DNA of 64,000 nt from Minwuia thermotolerans (GTDB lineage: Bacteria; Pseudomonadota; Alphaproteobacteria; Minwuiales; Minwuiaceae): assembly GCF_002924445.1 (NCBI RefSeq), contig NZ_PIGG01000026.1:248001-312000 (forward strand), in the 5' to 3' direction. This document shows positions 32,982 through 39,567 of this stretch, in pieces. The notes under the pieces were generated by a model. The model ran no database searches. It was not told the DNA's origin and was given only the letters and a program-made list of their open reading frames with translations. Numbering within the stretch: position 1 is the stretch's first letter; each line of letters begins with the position of its first letter. A program made the position numbers and the translations under genes.

Positions 32982-34121
32982 TCAGTCGAGGCCTTCGGCG
33001 CTGTGCGCGATCAGTTCGTCGACCACGGCACGGAAGGCGGCCGCCTCGCCGTCGCCGGCAGCCAGCCGCTTCTCGAAGGTCGCCATCTGCAGGTCGGCCG
33101 AGGTGCCGCGCATGGCGATGTTGCGGGCGTGGCGGACCTCGGCCTGACAGCCAAGCGCTTCGGCGTCCTCGGCGGTCAGCTCCAGGATTTCCTCCAGCAG
33201 GTCGGCGAAGGGCACCTGTTCGCCGATGCCGAAGTCGACCAGCGCGCCGCGCGCGCCGTGACGCATCGCCAGCCAGCGGTTCTCCTTGATCAGGGCGGCC
33301 GGGTAGATGCGCCAGCGCTGATTGCGCCGTTTCAGCCGCCAGAGCATGCGCAGCAGGCAGGTGAAGAGCGCGGCCACCGCGATCGCGTCGTCCAGCCGGG
33401 TGCAGACGTCGGTCACGCGCATTTCCAGCGTCGGAAACTTGGCGCTCGGGCGGATGTCCCACCAGAGCTTTGTGGCGTCCTCGATGACACCCGCGTTGAT
33501 GAACTGGTGCACCAGACGCTCGTATTCCCCGTAGCTGGAGAAGGTTTCCGGCATGCCGGTCCGGGGCAGGGCGTCGAAGACCGTGAGGCGGTAGGAACTG
33601 AGCCCGGACCGCCGACCCTGCCAGAAGGGAGAGGACGTCGTCAGCGCCAGCAGATGGGGCAGGAAGTAGCGGACCTGGTTCATCAGGTCGATGCGCAGAT
33701 CCTCGTCGTCGATGCAGACATGGACGTGCATGCCGCAGATCAGCAGCCGCCTGACCACCGCCTGCAGGTCCCGGGCGAGGGTCTCGTAGCGTTCCTTGCG
33801 GGTGGGGTGCTGGCGCGTCCACTCGGCGAATGGGTGGGTCGAAGCGGCCGCGAAGGCCAGCCCCTCCTCGGCCACGGCGTCGCGTACGGCGCGCCGCAGC
33901 TCGGTCAACGCCGTCCGCGCCTCTCCGACCGTCCGGCAGACCCGCGTGCCGACCTCGATCTGGGCGCGGAGGAATTCCGGCGTGACGAGCTGGTCCGGCG
34001 CCAGCTTCTGCGCCCGCTCCAGGATGGATTCGGGGGGGTCGGCCGCGAGGTCACGCGTCTCGGGGTCGATCAGGAGGTATTCCTCCTCGATCCCGATGGT
34101 GAACTGCGGCTCCGCGGTCAT
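32982..34121 (-). CDS. Carboxylate-amine ligase, YbdK/GCS2 family
   Basis: 379 residues of the YbdK-type glutamate-cysteine ligase family (GCS2). The N-terminus FTIGIEEEYLLIDPETRDL carries the acidic metal-binding residues; HVHVCIDDEDLR and TSSPFWQGRRSGLSSYR are further landmarks. YbdK has weak glutamate-cysteine ligase activity in vitro; the natural amine is unknown. It overlaps the N-formylglutamate amidohydrolase-like gene by 4 bases, implying one function shared between bond making and hydrolysis of gamma-glutamyl or formyl compounds. Confidence 0.85.
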   Translation of the reverse strand: MTAEPQFTIGIEEEYLLIDPETRDLAADPPESILERAQKLAPDQLVTPEFLRAQIEVGTRVCRTVGEARTALTELRRAVRDAVAEEGLAFAAASTHPFAEWTRQHPTRKERYETLARDLQAVVRRLLICGMHVHVCIDDEDLRIDLMNQVRYFLPHLLALTTSSPFWQGRRSGLSSYRLTVFDALPRTGMPETFSSYGEYERLVHQFINAGVIEDATKLWWDIRPSAKFPTLEMRVTDVCTRLDDAIAVAALFTCLLRMLWRLKRRNQRWRIYPAALIKENRWLAMRHGARGALVDFGIGEQVPFADLLEEILELTAEDAEALGCQAEVRHARNIAMRGTSADLQMATFEKRLAAGDGEAAAFRAVVDELIAHSAEGLD

Positions 34122-34915
34122 GCGGCCGTCTGCTCCGGGAAGGCCCGGTTCGGCGCCAGCGCCTCGCGGAACGCCCGGGCGATGATCACGGCCCAGCGGT
34201 CGGCGGCTTCCTCGGTCTCGATCAGGTCCTGGCGGATCTCCAGCGCGATGTAGGGCCGGCCCGCGTCGATGGCGTGTTCGTAGATCGAGTAGGACTTCGG
34301 GTCGTCCACCGAATAGGGCTGGTTGTCGCCGACGGCGATTTCCGGGTCGGCGCGCAGCACGTCCACCAGCCGCCGGCTCTCCGCGCTCTGTCCGTCGTGC
34401 AGGACGCCCAGGTGCCAGGGCCGCTGGGTGCCGCCGATGCGGGGCGTGAAACTGTGGATGAACAGCAGCACCGGCGGCTCCGGCCGGCTCATCGCGGCGA
34501 TCCGGCGGGCGACCTCGTCATGGTATTGCTGGTGGGCAGCCAGGCGGTGGGCGCGTTCGTTGTCCCCCAGGTTCTCGTTGCCATGCACGACCGTGCCGTC
34601 GGAGAAGCTGGCGATGCAGGTCGGATCGTCGGAGTAGCGGTTGAGGTCGACGAACAGCCGCGACAGCCCGGCCAGAATCGCCGGCGCATCGAGCAGTTCC
34701 GAGAGCCGGCGGGTGACGGCGGCGGCGCCGACGTCCCAGGCGATGTGCTCGAACATCTTCTCCTCGGCGATGCCCAGGCTGCCATAGCCGCGGGGCAGGG
34801 CGTTGGAGGCGTGGTCGCAGATCAGCAGCGCCCGCGCTGGCGCGCCGTCATTCAGGATATGGAAGGCCGGGGGCTCGGCGTCGCCCGTTGGTCTCAATGT
34901 CATGGGATCGAACAT
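34118..34915 (-). CDS. N-formylglutamate amidohydrolase-like protein
   Basis: 265 residues of the HutG/N-formylglutamate amidohydrolase fold. LLICDHASNALPRGYG near residue 30 contains the conserved Asp-His, and FVDLNRYSDD and FIHSFTPRIGG follow; IALEIRQDLI near the C-terminus holds a conserved Glu. True HutG acts in histidine catabolism, but no hut genes are nearby. Pairing with the YbdK-like ligase is seen in other alphaproteobacteria. Confidence 0.83.
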   Translation of the reverse strand: MFDPMTLRPTGDAEPPAFHILNDGAPARALLICDHASNALPRGYGSLGIAEEKMFEHIAWDVGAAAVTRRLSELLDAPAILAGLSRLFVDLNRYSDDPTCIASFSDGTVVHGNENLGDNERAHRLAAHQQYHDEVARRIAAMSRPEPPVLLFIHSFTPRIGGTQRPWHLGVLHDGQSAESRRLVDVLRADPEIAVGDNQPYSVDDPKSYSIYEHAIDAGRPYIALEIRQDLIETEEAADRWAVIIARAFREALAPNRAFPEQTAA

Positions 34916-34978: not shown

Positions 34979-37264
34979 TCAGACGCTGCCGGTCCAGTCC
35001 TCTTTCGACAGCGGCAGGTCCCGCACGCGCCGGCCGGTCAGGCGGAACAGGGCGTTGGTCACCGCCGGCGCGATCGGTGGCGTGCCCGGTTCGCCGGCGC
35101 CGCCTGGCGCCTCGCCGGAAGCGACGATGACCGTCTCGATCTCGGGCATGGTGTCCATCCGCACGACCTCGTAGTCGGGGAAGTTCGATTGCACGACCCG
35201 GCCCTTGTCGAAGTTGATCTGGCCCCAGAGCGTAGCCGAAAGACCGTAGACGATGCCGCTCTCCATCTGCGCGACCAGGGTATCGGGATTGATCACAGTG
35301 CCGCAATCGACGGCGCAGACGACCCGGTGGACGCGGGGTTGCCCGTCCTCGATGGAGACCTCGGCGACCTGCGCGACGATGGCGCCGAAGCTCTCGTGCA
35401 GGGCGATGCCGCGGGCGCGGCCCTGTGGCGGCGGGCTGTCCCATCGGGCGGCGTTTGCGGCGGCGTCCAGCACGGCCACGTAGCGTGGCTTGTCGCGCAT
35501 CAGGTGGCGGCGGTAGGCGTAGGGGTCCTTGCTGGCCTTGTGTGCCAGCTCGTCGATGAAGCTCTCTGAGAAGAAGGCGTTGTGGGAATGCCCCACCGAA
35601 CGCCAGAAGCCGATCCGCATCGGCACGCGGCTCAGCACGTGCTCCACGCGGACATTGGGCACGGCGTAGGGCAGCCAGGCCGCGCCGTCCACGGTGGTGC
35701 GGTCGGGCCCGGCGTCCGACATGAAGGACATGTAGCGCAGCGTCGCCTGGCCCGAAACGGAGGGACCGACGACCTTGTTCAGCCATGCGGTGGGATAGCC
35801 GTCCGCGTCCAGGGCGGCGCGGAAGTGCGACAGACCCGCCGGACGGTAGGTGTCCTGGCGGATGTCTTCCTCGCGCGACCAGATCAGCTTCACCGGACGG
35901 CCGGGTACGGCGTTGGCCAGCTTCACCGCCTGCCGGATGAAGTCGGGCTCCGCCCGACGGCCGAAGCCGCCGCCCAGATAGGTCACGTGGACGGTGACGT
36001 CTTCCTCCGGCAGGTCGGCTTCGCCGGCGGCTACCCACTGGCTGACCATCGGCCCCTGTGTCGGGGCCCAGATCTCCAGCTTGTCGTCCTGTCTGAGCGC
36101 GGTGCAGTTGATCGGCTCCATCGGCGCGTGCGCCAGGAAGGGCGCGCGGTAGGTCGCTTCGATGACCTCGCCCGCGGTTTCCAGCGTGGCTGCAGCGTCG
36201 CCGTCGTCCTGATAGCCGAAGCCGTCCTCGGCCAGCGCCGTCTCGAAGTCCGCGAAGATGTCGGCGTCGGAAAGCTCGGCCGCCTCCGACATGTCCCAGG
36301 CCACGTCCAGCGCGTCCAGGGCCCGCCACGCGCGCCAGGGCGCATCGGCGATCACCGCGACGCCGCCGGGCACCGCCATGATGCGGTGGACGCCCGGCAT
36401 CCGGGCGACCTGAGCGGGGTCGAAGCGCTCGACCCTGGCACCGACGACCGGTGGATGCTTCACCGCGGCGTAGAGCATCCCCTCCAGCCGGACGTCCATG
36501 CCGAACACGGCCGATCCGTCGACCTTGGCCGGAATGTCGAGGCGCGGGCGCGGCGTCCCGATGATGCGGTAGTCGGAGGGGCTCTTCAGCGCCGGGCTCT
36601 CCGGCGGGCTCTGCCGCGCGGCGTCTTCGGCGACGTCGCCATAGTCAAGGGTGCGGCCGCTGCCGGCATGGGTGATCACGCTGTCGCGGGCCGTCAGTTC
36701 GCCTACCGGGACGTTCAGCCGTTCGGCCGCGGCGGCCAGCAGCATCGCCTTCGCCGCCGCGCCGGCCTGACGCATCGGTCCCCAGGCCGCGCGCACGCTG
36801 GTGGAGCCGCCGGTCGCCTGAACGCCGATCAGTGTGGAGAGCCAGGCGCCCATGGAGCGCGCCTGGCGCGCCATGAAGCTGTCGTCATGCGGGCCGAAGG
36901 GAAAGCCCTCCGGCAGCATCACCTCGTTGGTGTAGATCGTATCGATCTCGGCGTCGGCGAAGGTGACCTTGGCCCAGTCTGCGTCCAGTTCCTCGGCCAG
37001 GATCATGGGCAGGGCCGTCTGCACGCCCTGGCCCATTTCGCTCCGCGGGACCGCGACGGTCACCGTGCCGTCCCAGGCGATCTTGACCCAGCCGTTCAGC
37101 GCCGCCTCGTTGGCGGCCGGGTTCATCAGTTCCTCGGGCGTGCCCGATTCCCCGGGCGTGAGATAACGCCACCCGACGACCAGTCCGGCGCCGGCGACCA
37201 GCGCGCCGCCGATCAGGAAGCGGCGGCGGCCGCGATTCTTTGGCTTTCCTATCTTCTTCGCCAT
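34979..37264 (-). CDS. Molybdenum hydroxylase large subunit, IorB-like (Tat-exported)
   Basis: 761 residues related to isoquinoline 1-oxidoreductase beta and aldehyde/xanthine dehydrogenase large subunits. The N-terminus has a twin-arginine signal (RRRFLIGGALVAGAG, about 13-27), so it should be exported folded. Molybdopterin-binding landmarks include GQGVQTALPMILAEELD and TYLGGGFGRRAEPD; the catalytic Glu is expected in GGAGEPGTPPIAPAV. It hydroxylates an N-heterocycle or aldehyde. It forms an operon with the 2Fe-2S subunit 14 bases upstream. No cytochrome c subunit is visible nearby. Confidence 0.88.
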   Translation of the reverse strand: MAKKIGKPKNRGRRRFLIGGALVAGAGLVVGWRYLTPGESGTPEELMNPAANEAALNGWVKIAWDGTVTVAVPRSEMGQGVQTALPMILAEELDADWAKVTFADAEIDTIYTNEVMLPEGFPFGPHDDSFMARQARSMGAWLSTLIGVQATGGSTSVRAAWGPMRQAGAAAKAMLLAAAAERLNVPVGELTARDSVITHAGSGRTLDYGDVAEDAARQSPPESPALKSPSDYRIIGTPRPRLDIPAKVDGSAVFGMDVRLEGMLYAAVKHPPVVGARVERFDPAQVARMPGVHRIMAVPGGVAVIADAPWRAWRALDALDVAWDMSEAAELSDADIFADFETALAEDGFGYQDDGDAAATLETAGEVIEATYRAPFLAHAPMEPINCTALRQDDKLEIWAPTQGPMVSQWVAAGEADLPEEDVTVHVTYLGGGFGRRAEPDFIRQAVKLANAVPGRPVKLIWSREEDIRQDTYRPAGLSHFRAALDADGYPTAWLNKVVGPSVSGQATLRYMSFMSDAGPDRTTVDGAAWLPYAVPNVRVEHVLSRVPMRIGFWRSVGHSHNAFFSESFIDELAHKASKDPYAYRRHLMRDKPRYVAVLDAAANAARWDSPPPQGRARGIALHESFGAIVAQVAEVSIEDGQPRVHRVVCAVDCGTVINPDTLVAQMESGIVYGLSATLWGQINFDKGRVVQSNFPDYEVVRMDTMPEIETVIVASGEAPGGAGEPGTPPIAPAVTNALFRLTGRRVRDLPLSKEDWTGSV

Positions 37265-37278
37265 TGTTCCGCTCCGGC

Positions 37279-37728
37279 TCAGGCGCGCGCGGCGCGGTGG
37301 ATCGCGCGGCGGATGCGGCTGTAGGTGCCACAGCGGCAGATGTTGGTGATGGCGGCGTCGATGTCGGCGTCGCTCGGCTCCGGGTTCTCGTCCAGCAAGG
37401 CCGCCGCGGCCATGATCATGCCGGACTGGCAGTAGCCGCACTGGGGAACCTGCTCGTCGATCCAGGCCTGCTGCAGGCGGTGCAGCCGGCCGGCCCGGCC
37501 GATACCTTCGATGGTGGTGATCTCGGCGCCCTCGACGGCTTCGACGGGCAGAACGCATGTCGGGGTCGCAACGCCGTCGACATGGACGGTGCAGGCGCCG
37601 CATGCGGCCACGCCGCAGCCGAATTTCGTGCCGGTCAGTCCCAGGGTCTCGCGGATGACCCAGAGGAGCGGGGCGTCGCCCTCCACGTCAACCGTCACCG
37701 GTTCGCCATTCAGGACGAAGCTCGCCAT
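37279..37728 (-). CDS. (2Fe-2S) subunit of the molybdenum hydroxylase, IorA-like
   Basis: 149 residues with two iron-sulfur domains: the plant-type ferredoxin motif [17 protein letters not shown] plus a later Cys, and the C-terminal [10 protein letters not shown]...CRCGTY motif. Such subunits pass electrons from the molybdenum site. It starts the iorAB operon after GGGAGG; a TetR-type palindrome lies 57-75 bases upstream. The subunit has no signal, consistent with export as a complex through the IorB Tat signal. Confidence 0.93.
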
Positions 37729-37784
37729 TCCCGCCTCCCGAGATGCCGGCGATACAGCCGGTGGAGATTCAACGCTTCAAATTT

Positions 37785-37803
37785 AACTGACCAAGGGTCA
37801 GTT
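37785..37803. promoter_or_regulatory. Likely TetR operator upstream of iorA
   Basis: Perfect 8-base inverted repeat AACTGACC-N3-GGTCAGTT, 57-75 bases before the iorA start and overlapping the tetR stop codon. The core CTGACC-N3-GGTCAG recurs at 38453-38469 before tetR. A TTGGTC...TTGAAT pair beside it could be the iorA promoter. Confidence 0.7.
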
Positions 37804-38451
37804 ATCAAGAACCGCGGCGAGCAGGGCGGCGAGGCCGGGGCGGACCACCGTCTCGAAGTCCGGCCGGAGGTTCTGGAATTCGGCCCGTTTCATGACGTTG
37901 CGCGCCGATTTCGGCGGATCGGAGACCTGCCATAGGCCGATGACCAGCGCGTAGACCTGCAACAGCAGGGCCGGCCCGTCGCCCGGACCCAGCTTCGGAA
38001 TCCGCCCCTCGGCCAGCGCGCCGAGCTCGGCGAGGGCGCCGGAAGTCGCCTGCTTGAAGGCGAGTACGGCATCCTCCGCAACCTGGCGCTCCAGGGTGCC
38101 ATGACACTGGGCGGCCAGCCGCAACATCACCGTGCGGCTCCGCAGGTCGGCGGTCATCCACTCCGCGATGCCTTCCGGGCTCGGCGTGGCGCCTTCCAGC
38201 GAGGCGGCGATGGCGTCGACCCAGGCTTCCAGCTCGTCGGTGAACAGGGCGAGGAAGATTTCCTCCTTGGCGCCGAAATAGAGATAGACCGTGCCCTTCG
38301 CCAGGCCGGCCCGCCTGGCCACCTGGTCCACGCTGGGAAGCTCGCCGTCGGTCTCCACGAACAGATCGCGGGCCGCGGTCAGGATGGTCTGACGGCGTTG
38401 TGCCTTCTCGATGTCGCCGCGGGCGCGTCTGGGTCTGGTGGTGTCGGCCAT
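37798..38451 (-). CDS. TetR-family regulator of the iorAB operon
   Basis: 217 residues. The N-terminal helix-turn-helix (about 15-65) reads RRQTILTAARDLFVETDG then LPSVDQVARRAGLAKGTVYLYFGAKEE, a typical TetR DNA-binding domain; the ligand domain is variable. ATG 38451 (MADTTRPRR) is chosen over the longer frame. Identical palindrome cores lie before this gene and before iorA, so it probably represses itself and the molybdenum hydroxylase and is relieved by substrate. Confidence 0.86.
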   Translation of the reverse strand: MADTTRPRRARGDIEKAQRRQTILTAARDLFVETDGELPSVDQVARRAGLAKGTVYLYFGAKEEIFLALFTDELEAWVDAIAASLEGATPSPEGIAEWMTADLRSRTVMLRLAAQCHGTLERQVAEDAVLAFKQATSGALAELGALAEGRIPKLGPGDGPALLLQVYALVIGLWQVSDPPKSARNVMKRAEFQNLRPDFETVVRPGLAALLAAVLDN

Positions 38452-38452
38452 A

Positions 38453-38469
38453 GCTGACCCAAGGTCAGC
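38453..38469. promoter_or_regulatory. Likely TetR operator at the tetR / DMT divergent promoter
   Basis: Perfect 7-base inverted repeat GCTGACC-N3-GGTCAGC immediately upstream of the tetR ATG, matching the core of the iorA site. The DMT permease gene diverges 106 bases away and might also respond. Confidence 0.7.
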
Positions 38470-38574
38470 AATGGCGCTGCCCCTGTCAAGCGGCGGACGC
38501 GGCTGGCCGCCCATGCATGCGCCACTGCGGACAGCGCAATGGATCGGCGGGGAATTCCGGCATAATCTCCCGCG

Positions 38575-39567
38575 ATGCCTGCTCACGACCATCCCGAACC
38601 CCTGCCGCACGAGAAGGCCGAGGAAGCCCGCCTGCGCAATCGGGGGGTGCTGGTCGGCATGGGCTATCTGGTGCTTTCGGGCCTGCTGTTCGCAATCTTC
38701 ACGGCCATTGTCAGGTGGGTCTCCAGCGACCTTCACCCGGCGGAGACCGCCTTCATCCGCTACCTTTTCGGTTTCCTCTTCCTGCTGCCGATCTTCATGG
38801 GCGCCCGGCGGCGCGAACTGAAGACGAAGCGGCCGGTGATGCACGTGTTGCGCGGGCTGATCCACGGTACGGGCGTGCTGCTGTGGTTCTACGCCATCGC
38901 CAAGATCACCCTGGCGGAAGTGACCGCGCTGGCCTTCACCGCGCCTGTCTGGGCGACGCTCGGTGCCTTTCTCTTTCTCGGCGAGACGGTCCGGGCCCGG
39001 CGCATCGCCGCGGTGCTGATCGGCCTGCTCGGCGCACTGATCGTGCTCTTCGGCATTCCTTCCTCCCAGGCGGAACTGATGGCGAATCTGAGCGGCATCG
39101 GCCTGGGGCAGTTCGCGATCCTCGTCGCCGCGCCTCTGTTCGCCTGCTCCAAGCTGATGACCAAGCGGCTGACGGATACCGAGAACACGACGGCCATCGT
39201 CGCCTGGCTGTCGCTGACGGTGACGGTGGTGCTGGCCATACCGGCGATCACGGTCTGGCGCATGCCGTCGCTGGAAGAATGGCTGTCACTGGCCGCGGTC
39301 GCGGCGCTGGCCACCACCGCGCACATCTGCATGACCCGCGCCTGGCAGGCCGCCGACATCTCCGTCACCCAGCCGGTGGAGTTCCTGCAACTGGTCTGGG
39401 CTTCCCTGATCGGCATCTACATGTTCGGCGAGACGCCGACCCTCGGCATCTGGATCGGCGGCGCGGTGATCGTCGGCTCCGCCAGCTACATCGCGCACCG
39501 CGAGGCGCTGACGCGGCGCCAGGAGCGGACGGCGGAAGCGGTTGCGGCCCGGCCGCATGCGACTTAA
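38575..39567 (+). CDS. DMT-superfamily (EamA) transporter
   Basis: 330 residues with ten hydrophobic helices in two EamA halves (about 25-165 and 180-315). LRGLIHGTGVLLWFYAIAKI and ALAFTAPVWATLGAFLFLGE are the typical helix 3-4 signature. It is a permease of the drug/metabolite family; direction and substrate are unknown. It is paralogous to the DMT gene at 49053. The divergent position next to tetR allows a role in moving the iorAB substrate, but this is inference. Confidence 0.85.
   Translation: MPAHDHPEPLPHEKAEEARLRNRGVLVGMGYLVLSGLLFAIFTAIVRWVSSDLHPAETAFIRYLFGFLFLLPIFMGARRRELKTKRPVMHVLRGLIHGTGVLLWFYAIAKITLAEVTALAFTAPVWATLGAFLFLGETVRARRIAAVLIGLLGALIVLFGIPSSQAELMANLSGIGLGQFAILVAAPLFACSKLMTKRLTDTENTTAIVAWLSLTVTVVLAIPAITVWRMPSLEEWLSLAAVAALATTAHICMTRAWQAADISVTQPVEFLQLVWASLIGIYMFGETPTLGIWIGGAVIVGSASYIAHREALTRRQERTAEAVAARPHAT

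Follow-up and report, generated by a model that had tools for sequence, protein, structure and literature searches.

A 64,000-nucleotide stretch of the Minwuia thermotolerans genome (the window) contains a tetR gene with a perfect palindrome on each side. Based on sequence features, the product of this gene is very probably an autoregulating repressor of the neighboring molybdenum hydroxylase genes iorAB, acting via putative operators upstream of tetR (O1) and upstream of iorA (O2) (Table 1).

Table 1. Genes, predicted operators, and promoter elements of the tetR-iorAB locus (positions are those of the window)
Feature	Positions	Strand	Description
iorB-like molybdopterin-binding subunit	34979-37258	-	759 aa from the start codon used, exact start approximate; MoCoBD_1 and MoCoBD_2
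iorA-like [2Fe-2S] subunit of molybdenum hydroxylase	37279-37728	-	149 aa; Fer2 and Fer2_2
Predicted sigma70-like promoter for iorAB	37780-37808	-	TTGATA-N17-TAAATT; sole promoter-like site in scanned 37650-38650 (0.0 +/- 0.2 expected)
Predicted operator O2	37787-37801	.	CTGACC-AAG-GGTCAG; 15-mer core CTGACCAAGGGTCAG
tetR	37798-38451	-	217 aa; TetR_N and TetR_C_34 regulator (Pfam)
Predicted operator O1	38454-38468	.	CTGACC-CAA-GGTCAG; 15-mer core CTGACCCAAGGTCAG
Possible tetR -35 hexamer	38484-38489	-	TTGACA; 22 nt upstream of the TGACC core of O1
EamA-family transporter	38575-39567	+	EamA; divergent from tetR; start 106 nt from O1

The tetR, iorA, and iorB genes are codirectional, so the two sites flank tetR, one on each side, as the sequence-only reading had described. 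iorA and iorB are adjacent, in the arrangement of a two-subunit IorAB-like molybdenum hydroxylase; no NCBIfam equivalog cut-off was reached for an isoquinoline-type assignment. Downstream of iorB, on the same strand, are genes for an N-formylglutamate amidohydrolase-like protein and a GCS2 carboxylate-amine ligase, which overlap by 4 bases (32982-34915). A larger operon that includes these two genes was considered and rejected, as among the compared loci the linkage was seen just in the near-identical G006.

Assignment of the regulator to the TetR family is supported by matches to TetR_N (PF00440; E 4.1e-12, 46.1 bits versus a cut-off of 24) and TetR_C_34 (PF17929; E 6.8e-26, 91.2 bits versus a cut-off of 26.3), and the TetR_C_34 domain was found in all ten homologous regulators scanned. 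An AlphaFold2 model (mean pLDDT 89.4) displays the all-helical TetR fold. The best match in the PDB, and the nearest solved structure by both sequence and fold, is SCO7815 (2zcx; sequence E 3.3e-14, TM-score 0.80 on the query, 26% identity). Against the RutR model (TIGR03613) the protein scores 38.1 bits, below the equivalog cut-off of 368.

The perfect palindromes CTGACC-N3-GGTCAG that had been claimed near iorA and tetR are both present. The arms are perfect over 9 bp at O2 (37784-37804) and over 7 bp at O1 (38453-38469), and because they reach beyond the 15-mer cores they agree with the positions first proposed. The sites are 667 bp apart; the tetR start codon is 2 nt past the end of O1 and the stop codon (TGA, 37800-37798) is inside O2. 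A search of the 4.9-Mb genome for the 15-base motif, a scan suggested with the original claim, recovered O1 and O2 as the two exact copies, both at the tetR locus. The shared half-site and spacing had been called unlikely by chance, and this holds up: in dinucleotide shuffling of the 901-bp region, palindrome pairs with arms of at least 6 bp, a shared half-site, and a shared gap were produced in two of 2000 runs. One coincidental pair within the tetR coding sequence was also flagged by this test, which indicates that the shuffles somewhat underestimate how often coding DNA contains such pairs. At up to two mismatches, the window contains 10 matches to the motif versus 3.97 +/- 1.83 in shuffles (10 or more in 0/100 shuffles). 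The shorter core TGACC-N3-GGTCA occurs nine times in the genome, compared with about 3.8 occurrences expected from dinucleotide shuffles and zero for the reversed control motif. One such core on its own could therefore be coincidental, but the O1/O2 pair cannot easily be explained in this way.

The position of O2 relative to the predicted iorA promoter suggests how it might act. The 17-bp spacer of this promoter covers 37786-37802, and is thus filled by O2. The -35 hexamer overlaps the final tetR sense codons (CTT GAT AAC TGA), and CTTGATA(A/G)CTGACC is retained in all eight family loci. At the matching place in G098, which is from another family, we identified CTTGTAAATGACC followed by TATAAG. 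We infer that the last tetR codons are fixed by the promoter and operator, not by the protein. Among seven family loci, the 30-nt O2 core is 89% identical, compared with 60% for the next 60 nt and 80% for the preceding 60 coding nt. For tetR itself, TTGAC occurs 22 nt upstream of O1 at six loci of the genus, in the window's genome (G000), in G001-G004, and in G006, and 30 nt upstream in G008. No clear -10 element accompanies it, and the scan of 37650-38650 yielded no clear tetR promoter. Use of this TTGAC element would give a tetR transcript with almost no leader.

We searched for tetR homologues in 60 relatives, in 385 genomes of the class, and in genome contigs, where a single-protein search recovered no relative and a profile search found homologues. 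After exclusion of two repeat records (L185, the same as G002, and L209, the same as G098), 16 distinct tetR-iorA loci were counted, and TGACC-N3-GGTCA is located between tetR and iorA in all of them (14 exact; one mismatch in G004 and G009). The genes are codirectional at 10 of these loci and divergent at six. Family loci are mutually related, so the 16 loci do not represent 16 independent events. At a further locus (L235) iorB adjoins a homologous tetR, no iorA was detected, and there is no site, making the count 16/17 if it is included. The outcome that had been named as refuting the operators, a tetR-iorAB locus that lacks the palindrome, was not seen at any of the 16 loci; the tetR-iorB locus L235 has no site.

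Within the family, presence of the site also follows linkage of iorA to this regulator. It is upstream of 8/8 tetR-linked iorA genes and 0/22 distinct iorA paralogues away from this tetR (30 of 52 matches were fetched, L050 with just 103 nt upstream, and measured gene starts were used). Exact sites occur at 1 of the 15 TetR_N loci of the genome, which is the locus described here; at another (L123), a match with one mismatch is located about 540 nt beyond the helix-turn-helix start. O1 is less strictly conserved. It is exact at two of seven testable family loci (G000 and G006) and has one mismatch at the other five (G001-G004 and G008), with G005 omitted from the count because the locus ends at a contig edge. 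O1 with one mismatch was also found at L218, and G098 keeps O2 with no site found upstream of tetR. Overall, the proposal that this TetR has operators at the promoters of both tetR and iorAB is well supported, given the conservation of O2, its restriction to linked genes, the restriction of exact copies to this TetR locus, and the overlap of O2 with the predicted promoter; autorepression is supported by the more variable O1.

The location of the sites on or next to core promoters, and their retention together with the regulator, argue for an occlusion mechanism of repression and for autoregulation. A TetR_C_34 dimer would bind TGACC-N3-GGTCA at O1 and O2. Bound at O2, it would cover the iorA promoter spacer and keep RNA polymerase off iorAB; bound at O1, it would cover the tetR start region and so limit its own synthesis. 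TetR would be released by a small molecule, which might be a compound that the Ior-type hydroxylase consumes or produces; the hydroxylase substrate as the ligand, as predicted in the sequence-only reading, is only a guess. Dimerization, binding, repression, and ligand release are all predicted from knowledge of the TetR family.

Other explanations for the two sites were considered. O1 is 106 nt upstream of the EamA transporter start, making the transporter a possible further target of TetR. It is unlikely, however, that TetR mainly represses this gene and that O1 exists for it. The transporter gene is divergent from tetR in the window, G001-G004, and G006, with O1 between the two genes, but O1 is 106 nt from the transporter start and O2 is on the predicted iorA promoter. 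In addition, iorAB is retained at G008 and at the examined tetR-iorAB loci outside the family, whereas these loci yielded no EamA relative. Alternatively, O2 could encode an RNA hairpin that ends or stabilizes the tetR transcript, and the window sequence at the tetR stop codon does fold (-11.6 kcal/mol, z -3.55). We rejected this role, which we consider highly improbable, because it is not conserved: fold energies range from -12.8 to -2.7 kcal/mol over five family members. Further, no terminator-like site was found in the scan of 37650-38650, the motif is away from the tetR end at the six divergent loci, and the same motif occurs as O1 at the 5' side of tetR. Chance or coding coincidence could explain a lone core site, given the number predicted per genome, but can be virtually dismissed for the palindromes, as the genome has no exact 15-mer beyond this pair and the core is conserved at all 16 tetR-iorAB loci. 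Some observations do count against an autoregulated iorAB repressor, namely the missing site at L235, the missing O1 in G098, the single mismatch in most family copies of O1, the many homologues with no TGACC-type site (see below), and the unrecognizable tetR -10 element.

TetR may also act in trans, repressing a small regulon that comprises, besides iorAB, the gene for an AurF-like di-iron oxygenase. In some species, a GMC oxidoreductase gene and the SDR gene divergent from it would also belong to the regulon. This proposal, to which we assign slightly less than even probability, extends the reading of TetR as an autoregulated iorAB repressor and does not replace it. The AurF-like gene was assigned by PF11583, and its site in the window's genome is at G000:C40:3507-3519 (L079; orthologues L157-L163). 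Based on measured gene starts, TGACC-N3-(G/A)GTCA is located 33-43 nt upstream of the AurF-like start in 7/7 genus genomes (three exact, four with one mismatch) and in 0/6 other AurF-like loci. Across six aligned genomes the site is 94% identical, versus 74% in its flanks. Exact sites were also found at three of six GMC oxidoreductase orthologues, and no TetR helix-turn-helix was found near the AurF-like or GMC genes. On the other hand, TTGACC may simply be a -35 element, and the GMC orthologues of G001-G003 have no site. The GMC scan assumed a 1500-nt upstream flank everywhere, an assumption that fails for loci at contig ends, among them L038 and L168. The TetR loci checked in the genome were those better than E 1e-4, and a further TetR that recognizes this motif may therefore exist. 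In G002 and G003, a site with one mismatch was also found at a flavin monooxygenase gene, and the identical site sequence occurs in G001. The candidate sites at the AurF-like, GMC, and flavin monooxygenase genes may be bound by this TetR or by another.

The putative operator is not confined to tetR-iorAB loci. Homologous TetR_C_34 regulators with the same operator were found in several phyla, often with helically phased pairs of sites, and beside some of them no iorAB was found. Among 80 TetR homologues on genome contigs, 21 have an exact site within 500 bp and 29 have a site with at most one mismatch (two of the latter solely inside coding sequence), compared with 0 and 2, respectively, for the reversed motif; the remaining 51 have no TGACC-type site within this distance. 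Pairs of TGACC-N3-GGTCA-type sites exactly 31 bp apart occur upstream of tetR at L188, L190, L207, L211, L226-L229, and L232. This spacing is approximately three helical turns, which suggests that two dimers bind in phase. At G001, G008, L213, L219, and L244 the paired sites are 21-22 bp apart. Firmicutes-type homologues, which have the helix FSRPTIYNY or close variants, instead have TGAC-N5-GTCA pairs upstream of tetR, mostly TGACA-N3-TGTCA and mostly 36 bp apart (L243, L247, L252, L253, L255-L260, and L262-L264). The base at position five of the half-site seems to vary with the recognition helix. Operator type clusters in a quick tree of 85 regulators (L185, L198, L209, and L245 omitted as repeats or near-copies); the tree has many weak branches and serves to show this clustering, with no clade defined from it. 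The Spirochaete homologues L216 and L231 have one exact site on each side of tetR, a flanking layout like that of the window.

Possibly, though we propose this tentatively, TetR_C_34 regulators share one cross-phylum code, TGAC-X-N3-X'-GTCA, in which X would be C for the helix AKGTVYLY and A for the Firmicutes helix FSRPTIYNY. The sites would often be paired, with spacings of 21-22, 31, or 33-36 bp, so that two dimers could bind in phase. The window would then be one instance of this code, with operator, iorA -35 element, and tetR stop codon overlapping in a single segment, and the same protein would also control the AurF-like oxygenase elsewhere in the genome.

Some described regulators resemble parts of this system. 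Escherichia coli RutR, like Streptomyces coelicolor XdhR, is a TetR family member, and its operator is TTGACCA-N2-TGGTCAA. The RutR operator shares the TGACC half-site with O1 and O2, but the window TetR falls below the RutR cut-off. With the terms used, searches of openly licensed literature returned no paper on RutR with this operator, none on TGACCNNNGGTCA with TetR, and none that combines TetR, 'isoquinoline 1-oxidoreductase', and operator. TetR_0692 of Clostridium thermocellum was found by EMSA to bind the perfect palindrome TGACCACGTGGTCA upstream of its own gene; this was described as the sole such palindrome in that genome, and autoinhibition was inferred (PMC8457756). Both TetR_0692 and the window TetR have TGACC...GGTCA upstream of their own genes, with four central bases in the TetR_0692 site versus three in O1 and O2, and the passages that describe TetR_0692 do not feature a molybdenum hydroxylase.

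Similarities in gene arrangement occur in two other systems. XdhR is described as a repressor that adjoins and controls xdhABC, with ppGpp as the ligand (PMC6627660). It is comparable to the window TetR in arrangement and control, as a regulator beside molybdenum hydroxylase genes, but its target is a xanthine dehydrogenase, unlike the IorAB-like enzyme. According to passages on Agrobacterium tumefaciens S33, a tetR gene is located by the two-subunit molybdenum hydroxylase genes ndhAB, both are induced by nicotine, and NdhAB was compared with IorAB (PMC5500553). As in the window, a TetR gene is beside a two-subunit molybdenum hydroxylase. However, the S33 TetR resembles NicR2 and is encoded in the opposite direction to ndhAB, whereas the window tetR is codirectional with iorAB.

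As predicted from sequence, the tetR-iorAB switch is ordinary in kind, and its binding motif is common to many related regulators. For an uncharacterized molybdenum hydroxylase, the analysis provides a candidate operator together with a probable local circuit, and after identification of the ligand the tetR-O2 pair would serve directly as a reporter of the substrate of the enzyme. More broadly, sites of many functionally uncharacterized TetR_C_34 regulators appear to be predictable from this operator.
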